Part shown: in pieces, positions 3,327 to 63,500 of the stretch
How the letters are laid out: every line of letters begins with the position of its first letter
Position numbering within the stretch: position 1 is the first letter of the stretch
Source: Nicotiana tabacum
Taxonomy: Eukaryota; Streptophyta; Magnoliopsida; Solanales; Solanaceae
Assembly (NCBI RefSeq): GCF_000715075.1
Contig: NC_134082.1
Location: forward strand, 194,917,948 to 194,981,947
Length of the DNA: 64,000 nt
Reading direction: 5' to 3'
The notes under the pieces: model-generated
What the model was told of the DNA's origin: nothing
Databases searched by the model: none
What the model saw: only the letters and a program-made list of their open reading frames with translations
Program-made: the position numbers and the translations under genes

Positions 3327-3385
3327 GGGACCAAACCGTGAGGCTGCCTACGTATCCTTAAAAGGAATCAGGTCGAACGTAGTTC
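3327..3385 (-). other. Two-hairpin motif, copy A3 (after pol)
   Basis: In sense it reads GAA-CTACGT, an unpaired stretch ending CCTGAT, TCCT-TTTA-AGGA, T, ACGTAG, GC, then AGCC-TCAC-GGTT. CTACGT and ACGTAG form a perfect 6-bp outer stem. It is almost identical to copy B1 in element B. Confidence 0.7.
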
Positions 3386-11331: not shown

Positions 11332-11398
11332 TACGGTCGAATCCTATGGAGATTGCCTACGTATCATGACCCCGCATGAATCAGACCAAGCTTAGTTC
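11332..11398 (-). other. Two-hairpin motif, copy A2 (between ORF1 and gag)
   Basis: In sense: GAACTAAG, CTGAT, stem TCATG-CGGGGT-CATGA, TACGTAGGC, then stem AATC-TCCATAG-GATT. Both stems differ in sequence from the other copies but still pair fully. The tail GGATTCGACC loosely resembles a T-arm/B-box. Confidence 0.7.
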
Positions 11399-13669: not shown

Positions 13670-14798
13670 TTATTAGGGTGATTAAGCAAAAATCAAGACT
13701 CATTTGACTCAGACACAAAATTGACACTTTTCTTTTTTATTTATTTATTTAAAAATAAAATCCGGTTTTGCAAGTACAGCCTTTCAGCACCTCGGAGACG
13801 AAGATTTTAAGGCTGTATTGGCTAACCAGTGAAAACCTTGAAAAAAATGATCACAGGCGGTTGTTCTTACAAAATCAGCCTTCCAGCGCCCTTTTAGAGA
13901 CATTCGGCTATTTCTGACAAGAATGGCACCACCCTAATTATTTTTAAATAAAAGTAAATTGTTTGTTCTTTTGGGCTATTTTTGCAAAAAAAGGAAGTTG
14001 GACCCGATGGGGGTTGCCTACGTATCCCACATCCGGTGGGAATCAAAGTGGCTTAGTTCGGACAAAAAAAAAGAACTATTTTCGAAAACAAAACTCCTTT
14101 CTCATTTTTCAATTCGTTTTCTCTTTTGTTTTTTTAAAAATTTGGCAGAGTTTCAGCGCTATTTGGACACTGATTTTTCTTTAAACAGGTGATTCACTCC
14201 CTTGACCCTCTACACTGCTATTTCTTTTCCAAATTCTCTCCTTTCATTCCAAAGTCGGTCAGCATGCAATTCCGAAGCAAATAAATGCGCAAGTAGCAAG
14301 TAAGATGCATCAGGATGGTCTTTATATTTCGGGTGCACCTGTCCTAGACAGGCCCAACCCCTGTGTTGAGTCTCCAAAGTCAAAATGCACATGATGCAAA
14401 CAAACGTTCCTACTATGGATCCGGCATGAGGTATTGTTATACTAGGTTTAAAACCTGGGTTTATTGTTCTAGACCTGGCTCACCCGAGCGGACAACTCGA
14501 GCCGGGGGGGCTGCGTACCGGTAACCAAAAGATCATCCGGCTTTGAAACTTGTCTGAACCTCGTTCTATTTGGGATATGACACTAACATAAAGAAGTCAC
14601 GACCAGCGTGCACTCCTCGGGAGAGAGAAGAGAGGGGTTTCGTAGCAGTTTATATACAGTTCAGATAATATCAAAGCGGTAAAAGCAACATTTAGCACAT
14701 TAGGCCCAAACATGTAATAAAATCAGATAATAGATAAAGCCAAATATAATAATTCATCTAAGCTCGAATTCTGAACCCTGAACCAGAGATTCTGGGTT
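13670..14798 (-). other. Element A leader (5' UTR, no gene)
   Basis: This stretch runs from the primer site to ORF1. Near 14400-14510 it shares blocks with the leader of element C: CTCGAGTTGTCCGCTCGGGT, a nearby TCTAGAAC-like segment and GCCGGATCC. Closer to ORF1 it holds motif A1. The short open frames in it do not look coding. Confidence 0.7.
13999..14059 (-). other. Two-hairpin motif, copy A1 (before ORF1)
   Basis: In sense: GAACTAAG, TTTGAT, stem TCCCAC-CGGAT-GTGGGA (6 bp), TACGTAGGC, A, then stem ACCC-CCATC-GGGT. Both stems are perfectly paired with sequences unlike the other copies. Confidence 0.7.
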
Positions 14799-24565: not shown

Positions 24566-24624
24566 GAACTACGTTCAACCTGATTCCTTTTAAGGATACG
24601 TAGGCAGCCTCACGGTTCGGTCCC
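24566..24624 (+). other. Two-hairpin motif, copy B1 (after pol)
   Basis: GAA-CTACGT, CCTGAT, TCCT-TTTA-AGGA, T, ACGTAG, GC, AGCC-TCAC-GGTT, CGGTCC. The outer CTACGT/ACGTAG stem and both inner stems pair, with one G-U in the last. Confidence 0.7.
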
Positions 24625-26450: not shown

Positions 26451-26559
26451 TTTAAAATCTTAGAGCTATGTAGGAAACATGATCCGATTAACACTCACAA
26501 ATATGCCCAGATCCCAAACAGGAGCAGAAAAATTTCTTTTATTTTGACTGTTTTGTAGC

Positions 26560-27600
26560 AATCAGGCGTCCACTTGGATAACGAGTGAATACAGTTTCAT
26601 GTTTTAGCAATCAGGCACCCACCTGGATAACGAGGGAATACAGTTTCAAGTTTTAGCAATCAGGTGCCCACCTGGATAACGAGGGAATACAGTTTCAAGT
26701 TTTAGCAATCAGGCGCCCACTTGGATAACGAGGGAATACAGTTTCAAGTTTTAGCAACCAGGCGCCCACTTGGCAATCAGGCGCCCACCTGGATAACGAG
26801 GGAATACAGTTTCAAGTTTTGGAATCAGGCGCCCACCTGAATAAAGAGGGAATACAATTTCAAGTTTTAGCAATCAAGCGCCCACCTGGATAACGAGGGA
26901 ATACAGTTCAAGTTTTGGTAATCAGGCGCTCACCTGGATAACGAGGGAATACAATTTCAAGTTTTAGTAATCAGGCGCCCAGCTAGATAACGAAGGAATA
27001 CAGTTTCAAGTTTTAGCAATCAGGCGCTCACCTGGATAACGAGGGAATACAATTTCAAGTTTTGGCAATCAGGTGTCCACCTGGATAACGAGGGAATACA
27101 GTTTCAAGTTCTGGTAATCAGGCGCCTACCTGGATAACGAGGGAATACAGTTTCAAGTTTTGGTAATCAGGTGCCCACCTGGATAACGAGGGAATACAGT
27201 TTCAAGTTTTGGTAATCAGGCGTCCACCTGGATAACGAGGGAATACAGTTTCAAGTTTTGGTAATCAGGAGCTCACCTGGATAACGAGGGAATACAGTTT
27301 CAAGTTTTAGCAATCAGGCGCCCACCTGGATAACGAGGGAATACAGTTCAAGTTTTGGTAATCTGGCACCCACCTGGATAACGAGGGAATACAATTCAAA
27401 TTGTTGATAATCAGGCGCCCACCTGGAGAACGAAGGAATACAATTCAAGTTTTGGAAATCAGCCACCCACCTGGAGAACGAGGGAACTCATTTTTACCAA
27501 AGTCAAGCTATTGGCAGGCGCCTACCTGGAGAACGAGGGAATTCATTTCAGAGTTACTTCAATTTGCAAATTCAAGAAGCATTAGGAGCCCGCCTGAAGA
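26560..27600 (+). repeat. Minisatellite III of element B, about 22 units of about 48 bp
   Basis: Unit core CAGGCGCCCACCTGGATAAC, then GAGGGAATACAGTTTCAAGT. Units vary mostly in the six bases between CAGG and CCTGG. One unit is a partial duplication (26759-26790). The last units drift to CCTGGAGAACGAGG. Confidence 0.95.
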
Positions 27601-27810: not shown

Positions 27811-27876
27811 GAATTACACGTGGCCTGATTCCTTTATAACCAAGGATATGTAGGCAACTCAGATACCGGGGCTCAG
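27811..27876 (+). other. Two-hairpin motif, copy B2 (before PPT)
   Basis: GAATTAC, CCTGAT, stem TCCTT-TATAACC-AAGGA, TATGTAGGC. The first hairpin pairs perfectly; the second is not convincing in this copy. Confidence 0.55.
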
Positions 27877-27976
27877 TCACATTCTCTTTTCTTTTAGTTT
27901 TTGTCTCTCTAAATAAGGGTCGGTTCAAAAACATGTCTTGTTGTTCTTTGTCTGAAAATACTTCGTGTTTTCCATC

Positions 27977-32747: not shown

Positions 32748-32838
32748 AAATAATACACACCACAATTTCCTCACACTGCCCAAAAAGAATATACTAAGTC
32801 TGAAGAGAGAGAGAGAGAAAAGGAGCTGAAAAAAAAAG

Positions 32839-34660
32839 ATGGAGGTAATGGACATTGTAACACTAGGCTTAGCTATACTCTTTTTGTGTGTATGGTGGAA
32901 ATATTGGTCAGTGACTGGAGGTGGGAAGAAAAATCTCCCACCAGGGCCACCTGGTTGGCCATTAGTAGGAAATCTTTTCCAAGTTATTCTCCAACGTCGC
33001 CCTTTCATATTTATAGTACGTGATTTACGTAAAAAATATGGCCCTATTTTCACCATGCAAATGGGACAACGTACCCTTGTTATAATCACCAGCTCTGAAC
33101 TTATCCATGAAGCTCTAGTTCAGAATGGCCCTCTCTTTGCGAGTCGACCTGCAGATTCACCGATCCGCCTTATATTTAGCGTTGGAAAGTGTGCCATTAA
33201 CTCGGCCGAGTACGGCCCTCTATGGCGCGCTCTCCGGCGGAATTTTGTTACTGAGTTGATAAACCCTACAAGAATCAAGCAGTGCAGTTGGATAAGGAAA
33301 TGGGCTATGGAATACCACATGAAAAGGCTTGAAAATGAAGTTTCTCAACAGGGGTTTGTAGAGGTGATGGCTAATTGTAGGCTTACTATATGCAGCATTC
33401 TCATTTGCCTTTGTTTTGGTGCAAAAATTTCTGAAGAGAGAATCAAGAAAATTGAGAGCATACTCAAAGATGTTATGCTCATCACTGCTCCACAGCTTCC
33501 GGACTTCTTGCCCGTGTTCACACCATTGTTTCGCAGTCAAGTGAAACAGGCGAAGAAACTGAGACAGACACAACTAGAATACCTAGTGCCTTTGGTAAGT
33601 TAAACTGTTAGAGATAGTACACTTTTAATTAGTTAATTATATTATATATGTCTCAACACGCCCCCTCACGTGTGTGGGCCTGCATGATTCTTTTTCTTAG
33701 CCAAACACATAGAAATAATTTTGCGACATTTGAACCAAAGACCTTTTGCTCGCTCTAATATATTTTTGCACGCTCTAATATATACTATGTTGAAATGTGT
33801 GATCGTGTTATCTAAAAATTTAAGTGGTTAGAAGTATCACACTTTTAGTTGATTACTAAATTATATTATGTCTTCGATCACAGGTAAGAGACAGAAAGGC
33901 ATTTGTGGAGAGCAATGGGAACCCTAAAAGCAGCAGTTCAGAAATGGTGAGTCCAATTGGTGCAGCCTATGTTGATTCATTATTTAGTCTTGAAATTCCT
34001 GGCAGGAAATTAGGAGAAGCAGAAATTATCACACTTGTTTCAGAAACAATAGGTGCAGGAACTGATACTAGTGCCACTGCACTAGAATGGGCTTTGCTTC
34101 ACTTAGTGATGGACCAAGAAATCCAAGAAAAACTCTACAAAGAAATAGTTGATTGTGTTGGAAAACATGGTGATATATCAGAAAGTGATGTTGAGAAAAT
34201 GCCTTATCTTGGAGCCATTGTGAAGGAGACTTTTAGAAGACATCCACCTAGCCATTTTGTCTTGTCACATTCTGTAACAAATGACACTCAATTAGGAGGT
34301 TACAATATCCCTTCTGATGCTTATGTTGAATTTTACACTGCATGGGTAACGGAGGATCCTAGTTTATGGAAAGATCCCGGCGAGTTTAGGCCGGAGAGGT
34401 TTTTGACTGGGGACGGAGTTGACGTGGACATCACGGGAATGAGGGGTGTGAAGATGCTTCCATTCGGGGCGGGTCGTCGGATCTGCCCCGCTTGGTCATT
34501 GGGTACGTTGCATATTTACCTCATGCTTGCTAAGATGGTTCATAAGTTTAAGTGGATACCCATACCAGATAACCCACCCGACCCGACAGAGACATTTGCT
34601 TTTACTGTGGTAATGAAAAATCCCCTCAAAGCAATTATTTTGCCAAGGTCTAAAATTTGA
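32839..34660 (+). CDS. CYP77A: CYP77A-like cytochrome P450 (exons 32839-33594 and 33884-34660)
   Basis: Two exons joined by a 289-bp GT-AG intron (donor TTG/GTAAGT, acceptor CACAG/GTAAGA) encode about 510 residues, the usual P450 length. Near the N-terminus are a hydrophobic ER anchor (about residues 5-20) and the proline hinge LPPGPPGWP. Exon 1 has FASRPADSPIRLIFSVGKCA and ALRRNFVTELINPTRIKQCS, typical of CYP77A. Exon 2 has the I-helix GAGTDTS, the K-helix ETFR, RPERF and the haem ligand region PFGAGRRICPAWSLG, with Ala after the Cys-Pro. CYP77A enzymes oxidise fatty-acid chains (in-chain hydroxylation or epoxidation) for cutin monomers at the ER. Both exons are open with no lesion, so it looks functional. 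It is the only host gene seen in the window. The family is confident; the exact member and substrate are not. Confidence 0.92.
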
Positions 34661-56706: not shown

Positions 56707-57935
56707 CAACGAAAACCCAGAACCACTGGTTCAGGGTTAGAAATTCAAGCTTAGATAAATTGTTATATTTGGTTTTATTTGATTTTGTTATATGTTTGGG
56801 CTCAATGTGCTAAATGAGGCTTTTACCGCTTTGATATTATTTGAACTGTATATAAATTATGCCGAAACCTTTCTCTTCTTACCTCCGGGGATGTGCTTAC
56901 TGGCTGAGACTCCCTATTATGTTAGCGTCATACCCTAAATAAAAGAGGCTCGGAAAGTTTCTAAGCCGGTTGGCCTTTTAGTTCCCGGAAAGAAGCTCCT
57001 TCCTCAACTCGAGTTGTCCGCTCGGGTACACTGTCTAGAACACCGACCCAGGTCTTTGAACATAGAATAACGTGACTTCATGCCGGATCCCTAGTAGGAA
57101 CGCTTATTTGCATCACGTTGCATTTGACTTAGGGGACTCAACACAGGGGTTGGGTCCGTCTAGGAATAGCAACTTGAAACAGAAAAGACCATCCTGATGC
57201 ATTTTACTTGCCATGTACATATATTTGTTTCGAACCTGCATGTTGACCGGTTTTTGAATCTCGGGAATGTTGAAAAAAAGGAGAAAAGAGAAAACAAAAA
57301 GAGAAGTAACAGTTAAGGCGTTAATTTATTATTTTAGAAAGTGAAAAATAGAAAAAAAAGTCTTTTATTTTTTGGAAAGTCGTTTGTTGAAAAAGAAAAT
57401 GAAAAAAAGAGTCTTTATTTTAGTTTGGAAAAATAGGTTGTTTTATTTTTGTTGAAAATGAAAAAAAGAGAGTTATTTGGTCTTGTTTTCAAAAATAGGA
57501 AAGGAAAATGGTTTGTCTTGCAATGAAAAATGAAAATAAAAAAGAGACTTGTTTTAAAACGGTTCGGTTAATTTGCCCGAACTACGCGGGTTTGATTCTC
57601 ATAGGGTGTGAGATACGTAGGCAACCTCCGTCAGGTCCAACCTCCCCCTTTTTTTTTGAAAATTGATAAAAGTAGCAAAAACGCCAAAGTATATTTTTCT
57701 GTCACAGGGTCGGGTGACGCCGCTTATATCAAAAATAGCCAAATGTTCCCAAAAGGAACTCCGGAAGGCTGCCTTTGTACAGACGGCCACCTCTTGTTGT
57801 TTTTTTATCACACAACCTTAAAAATCTTCGTTCACGAAGTGCTGAGAGGTCGTGTTCAGAAATCCTTTTGAGAAAAGTAGCATATGTTTTTGTTTTTATC
57901 AAAATAAGTTTCGTTTGTTAAAATCTTATTAATAA
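56707..57935 (+). other. Element C leader (5' UTR, no gene)
   Basis: It holds the palindrome CAACTCGAGTTG (57005-57016), a purine-rich stretch (about 57270-57545) and motif C1. About 100-200 bases around the palindrome are conserved with the leader of element A, including GCCGGATCC. Confidence 0.7.
57579..57638 (+). other. Two-hairpin motif, copy C1 (before ORF1)
   Basis: GAA-CTACG, TTTGAT, stem TCTCA-TAGGGTG-TGAGA, TA, CGTAG, GCA, stem ACCT-CCGTC-AGGT. The outer CTACG/CGTAG and both inner stems pair perfectly. Confidence 0.75.
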
Positions 57936-59981
57936 ATGTGCAGAATGAGCACGACTCCAAATGAACCCTTTTCAATCATGAATAAAATTCCCCTCCAATT
58001 GCGGCTCTGGTGGAATGATTTAGGCAAAGAAGGGCATGACGAAATCAAGAAATATCTGAAAGGCCTCACGAGTTTGTTGGATATCAGACCACGGGGAGAT
58101 ATCATAAGGGCACTGGTCCCCCACTGGGATCCTGCGCACAATGTCTTCCACTTCTCGGACTTTGAACTTACCCCAACTTTAGAAAAAATAGCAGGGTATA
58201 TCGGCAGTGCTGAGGCTCCATTGAGGCACAAATATCTGGTTGCTCCAAGAGCTGTGGCAATACACCGGTTTCTAGACTCATTAAAGATAGTCAGAACAAT
58301 TCATAACCCTGACTTGGCAAAAGGTTTTTGCACTATGAGTTTCATATACCAAAGATATGGTCACATAGGAGGATTCGACAAGCCAGAAAACCAGTTGTGC
58401 AGCAAAAGTAATCGTCAAAAGTGGGATGAACATAGACGGATTGCTTTCATGATAACTTTCTTAGGACTCTTAGTATTCCCAAGAAAAGACGGGAATATCG
58501 ACATAAAGAAAGCAGGGGTCGTCAGTACTTTGCTCACGCAAAAAGATAGTACACTGGCGCCAATGATAGTATCTGATATGTTCCGGGCTCTCACGTCTTG
58601 CAAGGCCGGAGGAAACTTTTTCGAGGGTTGCAACTTGTTGTTGCAAATGTGGATGACCGAACACCTATGTCACCGAGCCCAGTTTCTGAGCCATGAATCC
58701 GCTGAAAAGACCTGCATAGAGGAGTTCTATACCAGAGTTAATGAGGCCTACCTACCTGAAGGAGTCTCGGCATGGACCTCATATTTCCGTGCCCTCAACG
58801 CCAGTCAAATACAGTGGACGCTGGGATGGTTACCGATCGGCGAAGTCATATACATGCCAGCGGCCAGGCCCCATTTTCTTTTAATAGGACTCAAGAGCAT
58901 TCAACCATATGCGCCGCATCGGGTTTTAAGGCAACTTGGGAGGTGTCAAATAGTGCCGAAAGACGAGGATCTAAGCACCCAGGCGATTGAGATCAGTCCC
59001 GAGGGCCAGTTTCCTGAAGCAAGAGTTCGCCAAATTTGGAGCCAATGTCAATACTTAGAAGCAAATACTTGTGTAGTGAATCAGGCAAAAGGGGAAGTTT
59101 CGCCCGGGTATCAGGCTTGGTACAAAGGGGAAACATCATCTGGAAGGCCGACTAAAAGACCTCATCTGCAAGAATTTGCCAAGTCTTCACAAGAGCAATG
59201 GGGTTGATTGGCCAAAGAGCGGGAATATCTTGCCGAAACAGGAAGACTGAAACAACAACTCCAGGATATGAAGTTTGAAAGCCAACTACAGTTTGCCGCC
59301 CACAAGGGAGAAAAGAACAGATTAATCAAAGAAGGCGAGATCCTCAAAACCCAGATCCGGAAGATGAAAAGAGAGGCCAACAACCAACTGAGAAGTCGGG
59401 CGGATAAAAGGTTGATAGCAGGGTTAAGAAATCAGGTTGCGGAATGCCGGGAAGAGTTGGAAAGATCCAAGGCTAGCACAGCGAGATTACGGACCAAGTG
59501 GGCAAAAGGTACAATGGCCCGGAGGCAGTGCCTGCAACAAGTCATAAGGGATTACGAGCTGAGCATCGGGACATTAAGGGAAACGAACTCCACTCTTCAA
59601 GAGCGGATCTTCAAACAAACACGAGATGCCCAAGCCGACAGAAGGCGCTATTACGATGTAATGACCAGAATGGAAAGGCAAATGGAGATGTTCCAGGATC
59701 AACTTGCCAACAATGCGCAAACACTAGGATTGAAGAACCGACAAATAAGGCAGTTGTTCGTTGAAAGGGACAACATTCGAGGAAGGATCGACGAGATTGG
59801 GAACTACATCTACATAAGATGCCTAGCATGCGAGCAAATGCCTCGGAAAACCCTCCTTGTTTCCATCATGGGCTGCGTCCACCGGATCATGAATGAATTG
59901 AAAAGATTGCAGAGAGGCCTCACACCTAGAACCACGAAAAGGCCGAATGATGCATCGTGGGCCCTTAAGTTGGAAATTTAA
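57936..59981 (+). pseudogene. Element C ORF1, full length with one premature stop
   Basis: This is the Ogre-specific extra protein, about 681 codons. The start is ATG at 57936 or 57945. Residues 1-420 form a globular part: LWWNDL (about 25), RPRGDII (about 51), NVFHFSDFELTPTLEKIAGY (about 69-88), LGLLVFPRKDGNID, FFEGCNLLLQMWMTEHLC and LNASQIQWTLGWLP. Residues 425-640 are a long coiled coil (59208-59900) rich in Glu, Lys, Arg and Gln, followed by a short basic tail. The only lesion is TGA at 59205-59207, where element A has a Trp codon. Its role is unknown; the globular part resembles the plant mobile domain. It lies upstream of gag, separated by 578 bp holding motif C2. Confidence 0.85.
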
Positions 59982-60559
59982 TCTTCGGTCGAGTCATGTT
60001 CATTTGGCTTTTTGCTTTCCCATATGTTGTTTTATTTTCTTTTAGCCAAGTCAAGTTAAAAACTGTGGAGTCTGTACTGTTGCTATTCTTTGTTTGAAGT
60101 AATTTGTAATAGCAAATTTTGATGATGAATTCAATGATTCCAAAAAAGAATTTTGTGTATCTTTGCCTTATGGCAGAACTACGCCTGGTCTGATTCGCGC
60201 GGGGACGTGATACGCAGGCAATCCCCATAAGATTCGACCGCCTTTAATAAAGAAAGAAAGAAAGAAAAAGAGAGAAAAAGAAAAAAAATACAAAAATAAA
60301 ATAAAATACAGGGTTTCCCAAAATACTCTAAAAAAGGGGGACAAATGAGCAAGCCGGGATGACGCATGTTGTTTGAAGCAAAGCATGTAGAAACGGTTAA
60401 CTGCCTAGGAGCATTGCATCCTCTATGTGTTGTGATCAAATATATTAAACTCTAACGCTAACAAAGTTTGTTGTTGTCCATACCAGACAAGTTAGTTGTT
60501 AAAGAATTCTGGCAACACACTCTTACCAAACCAGATCCAAAGGACCGGTAGCAACAAGC
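59982..60559 (+). other. Element C spacer between ORF1 and gag (no gene)
   Basis: It contains motif C2, a purine tract of GAAA/GAGA repeats (60248-60295) and, from 60503, in-frame codons leading into gag without an ATG (encoding ATHSYQTRSK). Confidence 0.7.
60176..60240 (+). other. Two-hairpin motif, copy C2 (between ORF1 and gag)
   Basis: GAA-CTACG, GGTCTGAT, stem TCGCG-CGGGGA-CGTGA (one G-U pair), TACGCAGGC, stem AATC-CCCATAA-GATT, then CGACC. The outer stem has one mismatch caused by T to C in CGTAG. Confidence 0.7.
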
Positions 60560-63500
60560 ATGACTACTTCAGAGAATAGTAACGAGGAAGAAAGGCCGAT
60601 GAGCCAATTGTTAAAAGAAGCGATGGAAAAGATTGAAAGGATGGGACTAGAGATGAACGCAATGCAGCTAGCTTTAGCCAAGGCACAAAAGAGCCCTGAG
60701 CCACTGGGGCACATGCCGGAATACCCTCACTCTGGCCCTTCAACAAGCCTCCTGAATCCCCGTTATCATCAGAAAAGAAGCCCTCATGATTCCCAAGCTC
60801 CACCACCCCATCAACCTCTCCCAACATCAAATATTCCCACTTTTGTGGGACCCGCATCAGCCACCTTGCAAAGAACAACCAGTGAGCCATTGTTTCATGC
60901 TCACGATACGCAATACTATCCCCCTAAGCCTACATTCCATGCCCCCGAACCACAGGCCTACAATCCATACTTGGAGGTACCGGCAGAGATTGAAAAGCCG
61001 GTTAAAGACCCTGAACAAGATGAGGTATTGAGGAAGTTCAGAAGCCTGGAGCAGTCTTTCAAGAACCTGCACGGATTGGGCAACCAAGTCAGTGTGGCTT
61101 ACAAAGATCTATGCCCTTTCCCGGACGTCCAACTCCCGGCTGGGTTCAAGATGCCTAAGTTTGATTTATATGAAGGGCACGGTGATCCCATGGCACATTT
61201 GCGGGGATTTTGTAGCAAAATGAGAGGGGCAGGCGGCAAAGATGAGCTGCTGATAGCTTATTTCGGCCAAAGTCTGAGTGGATCTGCACTGGAATGGTAT
61301 ACCAGGCAGGATTCCAGCAGATGGTACACTTGGAATGATCTGGCGCAGGCTTTCGCGGGTCATTTCCAATACAATCTCGAGATAGTCCCTGATCGTCTCA
61401 CATTATTGAGGACCGGGAAGAAACTCGGGGAAAGTTTTCGCGAGTTCGGGTTCTGCTGGAGAGAGCAAATGGCCAGAGTCGATCCTCCCATGAGAGAGGG
61501 AGAGATGGTGGACTATTTCTTGCAAACATTAGATCCAACCTACTTTGGTCACTTGGTGACGACGGTTGGAAAATCCTTCAACGAGGTGGTGAAGATAGGG
61601 GTCATGATAGAAGAGGGTCTGAGGTCTGACAAAATCCTGAATTACTCAGCACTCAAAGCAACGACCCAGGCTATTCAGAACGACACGGGAGGTGCGCTGA
61701 GAAGAAAGAAAGAAGAAATTGCCACGATCGAGGCAGGTAGTTGGTCCGGGTCTGGCAAGCCACACTACAACCAACCCAGACCTCACAGGCCAAACTACCC
61801 ATAAAACCCACCACATCACTACTATCCACCCCAAGAACCGCATTTCACCGTCTATCAAGCCCAGACATACACCCAACCTCCGGTTCGCCCACAATGGCGT
61901 GCGCCAGCTCCCCACGATACATACCCAGCTCCACATAATACCTACCCACTACCACAAAGTACCTACCCTCCACCCAGAGCATACAGGAACCCTCCAGGGA
62001 CAGGTTTTCGAGGGAGTCAAGCTACCGAAAATGATAGGCTACAGAAACATAGAGCCTTTACTGAGCTGGGAGAGTCCTATACCGCCGTAATCCACAAATT
62101 GAGACGGTTGGGTTTGGTGAGTCCTGTCGAACCCAGAGAGCAAAACCCCCACCTCAAAATGTGAACAGGTCAATAAGCTGTGAATACTGCTCAAGAATGC
62201 TGGGACATGAAACTGAAAAATGTTGGAGACTGAAGCAGGCGATACAAGACCTCATTGATACTAACAAAATCGAGGTCCAGACACCGGAGGCACCTAGCAT
62301 CAATCAGAACCCACTGCCAGCGCACCACGAGACGCACATGATCGAGTTGGTGTATGAGGGAGGAGAGTTGAGACAGCCCTCACAGACAGTGATGATGATC
62401 CAGGCTGCTCCGAAAGAAGGATTGCCCAGTAGAGGAATGGGGGTACAGTCGCAGGGAGAAGGCGTAAAGCCAGTAGTGATATTGGGAAAGAGCCCGTCCG
62501 CCGTAACAAGCAAACCCGAGCCAAACAAGTTGGTAATATCAGGGACTCCACCCACACCTGCAGTTGTGTTGAAGGGGGTATACAGAGAACTGGTCATCAT
62601 AAAGCCTGTAGTCCAGCTGCCGATGATTGATAGCAAGGCCGTTCCTTGGAAATATGAAAAGGTGGTGGTGATGTACAAAGGAAAACAAGTGGAGGAAGTT
62701 AGTTGTGAAGGGCAAGGGCTGACTCGATCAGGTCGGTGTTTTGCTCCGGTGGAGCTGAGAAGAACCAACCCCGCTACAACCAAGAAACCTGTGTCCGAAG
62801 AAGAGGCTGAGGAGTTCTTAAGGAAGATGAAAGTGCAGGACTACTCCGTGGTCGAACAGCTGAGGAAAACACCAGCCCAGGTCTCGCTGCTGTCATTACT
62901 GATCCATTCTGAGGAACATCGCCGGGCCCTGATGAAGATATTGAACGAAGCTCATGTGCCCAACGAGATTTCTATAAACCACATGGAAACCATTGCCAAC
63001 AAGATTTTCGAGGTGAACAGGGTAACATTCTCAGATGATGATCTGCCGGTAGAAGGTACGGAGCATAATAAAGCTCTCTACCTAACTGTCAAATGTGAAA
63101 ACTCGGCAGTCACTCGGGTATTAGTGGACAACGGTTCAAGCGCCAATATTTGTCCATTATCCACCCTAAACCAGTTAAAGATCGACCACGGAAGAATCCG
63201 CAAGAATAACATATGCGTCCGAGGGTTTGACGGAAACGGAACAGCCACTGTGGGGGATGTTGTGCTTGAATTGACCATCGGTCCAGTCCTGTTCACCATG
63301 GAGTTCCAGGTGTTGGATGCCACAGTATCTTATAACCTTCTGTTAGGACGACCGTGTATTCATGCAGCCAAAGCAATGCCTTCCACCCTACATTAGATGG
63401 TCAAGTTCGAGTGGGATAGACAAGAGGTCATACTGCACGGCAAGGACACGGCATGCACCATGGGTGGCGCCATTGTGCCTTTCATAGAGACCGAGGATGA

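Follow-up and report, generated by a model that had tools for sequence, protein, structure and literature searches.

The window analyzed here, a stretch of 64,000 nucleotides of Nicotiana tabacum contig NC_134082.1 (positions 194,917,948-194,981,947), holds three long terminal repeat (LTR) retrotransposons, designated A, B, and C, whose untranslated junctions carry eight copies of a short motif. The name Ogre (Ty3/gypsy, Tat) for these elements was taken from an initial annotation and rests here on the content and order of their domains. Element C possesses the extra open reading frame upstream of gag (ORF1) that is a trait of the Ogre type, and this ORF1 encodes a plant mobile domain (PF10536, E=1.1e-19), a domain reported in 57% of Ogre elements (PMC6317226). 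Each of the eight copies was found where it had been placed and in the sense direction of its own element, as judged from ORF1, gag, pro, and pol blocks on the same strand; same-strand neighbors of the copies included ORF1 with the plant mobile domain, gag, reverse transcriptase/RNase H, and integrase. The four sites proposed within the element were also borne out, namely before ORF1 (position 1), in the gap between ORF1 and gag (position 2), after pol (position 3), and approximately 110 nt short of where a purine-rich tract leads into the putative start of an LTR (position 4). A gapped pattern derived from these copies matched 6 of the 8 in the window (A4 and B2 depart from it slightly) and matched nothing in 100 dinucleotide shuffles, and a covariance model in which all eight copies were included recovered 8 of 8. 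Comparison of the copies supports the motif being a cis-acting structured RNA module, approximately 57-70 nt long, carried by the sense RNA of these elements.

The same comparison supports a fold in which helix P1 would close a three-way junction with hairpins P2 and P3, while a strand upstream of P1 would pair into the P2-P3 junction to form a nested double pseudoknot. The structure is a pseudoknot because this last helix (PK, CUACG/CGUAG) crosses P1. From 5' to 3' the order is GAA, PK 5' strand CUACG, 1-3 nt, P1 5' arm, UGAU, P2, UA, PK 3' strand CGUAG, GCA, P3, 1-2 nt, and P1 3' arm, and the unpaired core (GAA, UGAU, UA, and GCA) is almost invariant. The initial annotation had the pairing of P2, P3, and CUACG/CGUAG essentially right but overlooked P1, which consists of the four bases directly before TGATT and four at the 3' end (e.g., GGTC/GACC, GACC/GGTC, or GGTT/AACC), so that CTACG/CGTAG crosses P1 and is not a simple outer stem of its stem 1. 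In copy C1 (position 1, before ORF1; 57579-57642, plus strand, 74.7 bits), the PK 5' strand at 57582-57586 is partnered by CGUAG at 57616-57620, within the P2-P3 junction, and the P1 arm GGUU at 57589-57592 by AACC at 57639-57642. The 5' arm of P2 (stem 1 of the initial annotation) lies at 57597-57603 with its partner at 57607-57613, and hairpin P3 (its stem 2, ACCU/AGGU) occupies 57624-57636, separated from the P1 3' arm by CC. Downstream on the plus strand are ORF1 of element C (57936-59981, with one in-frame stop), copy C2 (position 2; 60176-60240, 72.3 bits, P1 GGUC/GACC) approximately 195 nt past the ORF1 stop, and gag (60503-61804; PF03732 at 21.0 bits, slightly below the cut-off of 24.1).

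The fold was evaluated in an alignment of 79 copies (8 from the window, 13 sampled, and 58 fetched), and joint support for PK, P1, P2, and P3 was already present in the first 15 aligned. Predicted partners paired in 90.5% of 1575 cells, compared to 79.0±0.5% with partners shuffled and 23-38% with partners slid; by helix, the paired share was 97.2% for PK, 86.1% for P1, 93.6% for P2, and 85.0% for P3. Doubly changed paired cells numbered 269, compared to 86.6±17.2 after shuffling. The arms of P1 were GGUC/GACC (14 copies), GACC/GGUC (11), GGUU/AACC (10), GGCC/GGUC (6), GAUC/GGUC (5), AGUU/AACU (3), UACC/GGUC (3), GAUC/GAUC (2), and rarer forms, some of them mismatched, and at PK pair 8-44, A-U replaces G-C in 17 of the 79. 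Since copies are inherited by type, we also applied a tree-aware null in which columns were simulated independently along the motif tree. The observed pairing was reached in 4 of 1000 simulations for PK, in none for P1 or P2, in 2 for the three-pair core of P3, and in 45 for P3 with all five pairs. When 2278 column pairs were ranked by an R-scape-like score, predicted pairs took ranks 1-3, and 9 of the 20 predicted pairs fell within the top 26. The shuffled and tree-aware comparisons agree in favoring a folded sense RNA over plain sequence conservation, as the initial annotation had argued. An excess of G-U over A-C, as folding of the sense RNA should produce, was observed in 19 pairs (99 versus 44 cells) and in all 20 when the weak pair 51-69 was added (100 versus 73).

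Two other pairing schemes were rejected: a reading as hairpins only, given the evidence for four helices across the alignment, and a helix of GAUU with GGUY, which paired in 93.0% of cells but without covariation. Single-sequence minimum-energy folding gave nothing unusual for the copies compared to shuffles (z from -0.61 to +0.58), as would be anticipated for a fold that relies on a pseudoknot, a feature that the folding program cannot model. Because the motif sequences themselves supplied the tree and the tested copies had contributed to deriving the structure, these statistics support the fold short of final proof.

The remaining window copies belong to elements A and B. Element A, on the minus strand, carries A1 (position 1; 13996-14059, 68.2 bits, P1 ACUU/AACU), A2 (position 2; 11334-11398, 76.4 bits, P1 GGUC/GACC), A3 (position 3, after pol; 3329-3385, 59.8 bits, P1 GACC/GGUC), and A4 (position 4, before a putative polypurine tract; 223-290, 60.3 bits, P1 UGACC/GGUCA). 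Element B, on the plus strand, carries B1 (position 3, approximately 257 nt past the pol stop; 24566-24622, 58.8 bits, P1 AACC/GGUC) and B2 (position 4, approximately 110 nt before the putative 3' LTR start; 27811-27880, 60.3 bits, P1 UGGCC/AGUCA). Mismatches in the window copies were single ones, in P1 of A1, B1, and B2, in P3 of B2, and in CUACG/CGUAG of A1, A2, A4, and C2. The 3' untranslated regions between copies 3 and 4 also contain tandem repeats, with a unit of approximately 49 nt in element B (26455-27555) and approximately 45 nt in element A (approximately 559-1625), the two arrays being related at approximately 73-80%. Between the transposons, at 32830-33603, there is a fragment of a cytochrome P450 (PF00067, E=1.3e-29).

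The motif is abundant in the tobacco genome. A strict motif pattern occurred 56,818 times (28,833 + 27,985) in the assembly of 3.996 Gb and 700 contigs, and the reversed control pattern occurred 0 times. In 28 dispersed 10-kb pieces (280 kb), the covariance model identified 14 copies in 9 pieces, or one per 20 kb; if these pieces are typical, the genome would hold, very roughly, 200,000 copies. One of the piece copies (L007:767), which had been excluded from the model, scored 42.1 bits, and the next match scored 11.8 bits. Coding blocks of the same element type lay on the same strand within the piece for 11 of the 14 copies. The carrier of the other three was unassignable: pieces L011 and L016 had no such block, and in L031 the only block was of a more distant kind, on the opposite strand and 6.7 kb away. 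In elements that are broadly of this kind but more distant (31-56% protein identity), the model found no match at the junction upstream of gag in L013 and L019 or between ORF1 and gag in L031. Likewise, nine pieces with only other Ty3-type elements (approximately 22-45% identity) contained no copies, a match of 11.8 bits in L009 (E=4.5) being at chance level. The motif therefore marks a subset of the lineage.

Position types were assigned by simple sequence rules to 100 listed places, all within the first 5.2 Mb of contig C1. Types 1, 2, 3, and 4 accounted for 42, 33, 8, and 13 places, with 4 others, and 42 of 45 neighbor pairs within 15 kb shared a strand. In sense order these were 1-2 (22), 2-4 (6), 1-1 (5), 3-4 (4), 2-3 (2), other-2 (1), other-3 (1), and 4-1 (1), the last taken for two successive elements, as its members are 12.8 kb apart. 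This 1-2-3-4 order, with the same-strand element genes around 11 of the 14 sampled copies, upheld the proposed tie between the motif and the untranslated junctions of this element type. Types 1 and 2 were 2.4-2.8 kb apart in 9 pairs; the other 13 pairs were spaced by 0.5-1.5 kb, too little for a full ORF1 (2.0 kb in element C), and thus both copies can outlive ORF1. Since copies are position-typed and keep their order, they seem to be maintained separately, which argues for a local effect on neighboring RNA. At three places on contig C1 two copies of the position-1 type lie 0.2-0.8 kb apart on one strand (1644184/1645001, 1863548/1864253, and 3344824/3345045), which suggests extra copies in some elements. 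A further type (GAACTACGCATAC...), with a long P2, falls outside the four types by these rules and was seen on contig C1 at 386511, 1723094, 2564828, and 4550386, upstream of type 2 once and of type 3 once.

A pattern scan of bacterial and archaeal genome contigs (257 Gb) returned one match, in a gut metagenome-assembled genome (MAG) contig from roe deer (JAFUBK010000065.1, 6500-9923). By a rough estimate the pattern alone would match approximately once by chance in that collection, and the weight of this copy therefore rests on the surrounding genes. On this contig, which is chimeric, the motif lies 52 nt past the stop of a plant hAT transposase ORF (PF05699, E=1.9e-21), in the same sense, and Bacilli genes come after it, so a bacterial origin was rejected in favor of a chimera of plant hAT DNA and Bacilli DNA. 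The nearest named relatives of the hAT protein were, among the best 120 of 226 matches, from Dipteronia, Acer, and Xanthoceras. Although excluded from the model, the copy scored 49.9 bits (E=1.2e-8 for 347 kb, or roughly 0.01 when scaled by our own arithmetic to 257 Gb, the underlying E-values being rough), and it keeps all four helices in other letters: P1 GGCCUU/AAGGCC, a 7-bp P2, P3 GCUUAAU/AUUAAGU, and PK CUACG/CGUAG. As an observation in its own right, a public Bacilli MAG contig thus carries a plant hAT gene, probably diet DNA, with its closest named relatives in Sapindaceae. We also examined the first 8 stop-free of 67 listed distant hAT matches (29-31% identical) in the tobacco genome, and none had a model match at E<=10 in the 300 nt downstream; six of these reads pass the stop by approximately 160-180 nt, and two (L095 and L097) look C-terminally rearranged. 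Occurrence in two transposon classes is weakened by these 0 of 8 and by its dependence on one contig that is already chimeric.

Searches of databases and literature returned no counterpart. Rfam 15 gave four weak matches in the window at E<=1, none at a copy, and against 20 fetched copies at E<=3 it gave one weak Yersinia small RNA match that fell largely within flanking sequence of L067 and reached 14.3 bits where the cut-off is 167. The initial annotation had known of no description of the motif, and we likewise found no convincing match in Rfam 15 and none in open-access literature, judged mostly by title and abstract. The one literature match to the letter string of the motif that was examined was an actin primer. 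A viral-contig match (L001) lay within a phage-like ORF and was taken as chance, and two other scans of viral contigs gave nothing usable.

The motif may be a local RNA-fate element, and its leading candidate function, at a probability of roughly 35%, is to block 5'-to-3' decay in the manner of exoribonuclease-resistant RNAs (xrRNAs). In plants the 5'-to-3' exonucleases are of the XRN4/XRN2 class, and by analogy with the viral xrRNAs the motif would stall such enzymes mechanically. Once the very long transcript had lost its cap or been cut under the guidance of small RNAs, degradation would halt at the next copy, with decay ends expected just upstream of GAACUACG. Position 1 would save ORF1 and everything downstream, a stop at position 2 would yield a shorter RNA that starts with gag-pol, and what remained after a stop at position 3 or 4 would be 3' non-coding fragments able to occupy the nuclease. 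This reading was ranked ahead of RNA export, the next in order, because topology and intergenic placing fit xrRNAs. Like the motif, xrRNAs are compact, and those of mosquito-borne flaviviruses have a three-way junction with a 5' strand paired into it (PMC5760640); this class 1 trait is supported by the 79 copies. They occupy untranslated and inter-ORF sites, sometimes in more than one copy, and those of plant viruses are in part intergenic, including examples located where coding subgenomic RNAs start (PMC6299227). Unlike xrRNAs, the motif has a different sequence, a crossing helix of 5 bp, and a retrotransposon host, and its nuclease resistance is putative.

Several results weigh against a decay block or against the fold on which it depends. 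No Rfam 15 xrRNA family matched the copies, and a second xrRNA pseudoknot, joining the apical loop of P3 to sequence further downstream, did not stand out among the top column pairs, with approximately 9 columns available downstream of P1. Protection by the hAT copy or by copies at positions 3 and 4 would extend only to non-coding 3' tails. In a strict R-scape-like test, pair 53-67 alone reached E<0.05 and 24-38 had E=0.17. Some copies have unpaired cells in P1 (23 of 316 across its four main pairs), and its fifth, outer pair fails in 32 of 79. The inner two bases of its 5' side (columns 15-16) are pyrimidines in 78 and 76 of the 79 copies and can pair instead with the junction UAGG (columns 46-49), so there may be a switch between folds or base triples. 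This alternative YYUG/UAGG helix, which RNAalifold had proposed together with P2 for the initial 8 copies, can form in 98.4% of cells with zero two-sided changes.

An export element is the possibility that we would place next, itself a tentative one: the motif would recruit export factors for the full-length, intron-retaining RNA, with several copies acting additively. Known export elements, the constitutive transport element (CTE) of retroviruses, the RNA transport element (RTE) of intracisternal A-particles (IAP), and the MusD transport element (MTE), sit near the 3' end, and CTE-like elements are usually just before the polypurine tract, as is position 4. These are structured sense-strand RNAs of LTR elements like the motif, and the MTE holds a pseudoknot (PMC12786077). 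A need for export of intron-retaining RNA is plausible in both cases; Ogre RNAs of pea and Medicago keep their intron, which is spliced in only a subset of transcripts (PMC6317226). However, up to four position-typed copies in separate untranslated segments set the motif apart and exceed what export of the whole RNA would need, and plants have, to our knowledge, no clear NXF1. A role in translation of the adjacent ORFs, by re-initiation, internal entry, or cap-independent enhancement, would suit positions 1 and 2, which precede ORF1 and gag, and plant viruses have 3' enhancers that can contain pseudoknots and work from within the 3' untranslated region. We consider it improbable, and a pure translation role is disfavored because positions 3 and 4 follow the last ORF, as does the hAT copy. 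The tighter spacing in 13 of the 22 pairs, with both copies kept where a full ORF1 of approximately 2 kb does not fit, also argues against it, so that re-initiation or internal entry, which had been offered as a role by the initial annotation, fails as a general one. A packaging or dimerization signal bound by Gag or the ORF1 protein is also unlikely. All assignable sampled copies belong to one retrotransposon type, and dispersed copies would suit cooperative packaging, but a DNA transposon packages nothing, and a copy behind a hAT transposase, if sound, disfavors this role; its weight is limited by the single chimeric contig.

A self-cleaving ribozyme is very improbable. The motif order of PK 5', P1 5', P2, PK 3', P3, and P1 3' has two crossing helices nested as in hepatitis delta virus (HDV)-like ribozymes, whose strand order is P1, P2, P3, P1', P4, P2'. 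However, no HDV-like or hammerhead family of Rfam 15 matched, no catalytic core is recognizable, the junction before the P1 3' strand, where the catalytic C would lie, is only 1-2 nt, and the genomic RNA would not survive cleavage at the copies in positions 1 and 2. We give as little weight to an absence of RNA function, in which the seeming covariation would go back to a small number of old duplications of one short repeat and to inheritance by type. The types and independent events are few, the strict test left one pair, folding energy was unremarkable, and uncompensated P1 forms such as GACC/AGUC also occur within types. Against this stand the pairing beyond tree expectation in each helix (P3 less clearly when all five pairs are counted, as above), compensation within types (GACU/AGUC, GGCU/AGUC, and UACU/AGUU alongside GACC/GGUC, GGCC/GGUC, and UACC/GGUC), the four helices retained by the hAT copy, and the excess of G-U. 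Triple-helix elements for nuclear expression (ENE, and double ENE) are cis-acting RNA structures of plant transposons such as Evade that have been tied to RNA stability (PMC12501189). Their repeated U-rich tracts bind the poly(A) tail, and the motif differs from ENEs in also occurring in 5' leaders. An ENE was disfavored and rejected because such tracts are absent, none of the 79 copies having two U4 tracts more than 8 nt apart.

To return to a decay block, a broader form of it would be a widespread RNA family in both classes of mobile elements of plants that splits transposon transcripts into protected modules and numbers 56,818 or more strict-pattern copies in a single plant genome. It would span the Ogre retrotransposons studied here and a hAT DNA transposon of a maple-family-like plant. 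Both the decay-blocking action of such a family and its reach across the two classes are doubtful, and we know of no such decay-blocking RNA outside viruses.

Many plant genomes consist largely of elements of this kind, and little is understood of the ways in which RNAs of such length persist, exit the nucleus, and allow expression of several ORFs; according to one review, export of plant LTR-element RNA has not been studied directly (PMC12786077). A compact pseudoknot at untranslated junctions, of which this one genome supplies tens of thousands of natural variants, offers a directly testable handle in a piece of 70 nt. Taken together, the sequence comparisons suggest that the motif probably serves as an RNA device, so far little known, that influences what becomes of transposon messages. 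Should it block decay or promote export, it would be a means by which transposon RNA withstands host RNA surveillance, possibly common to retrotransposons and DNA transposons.

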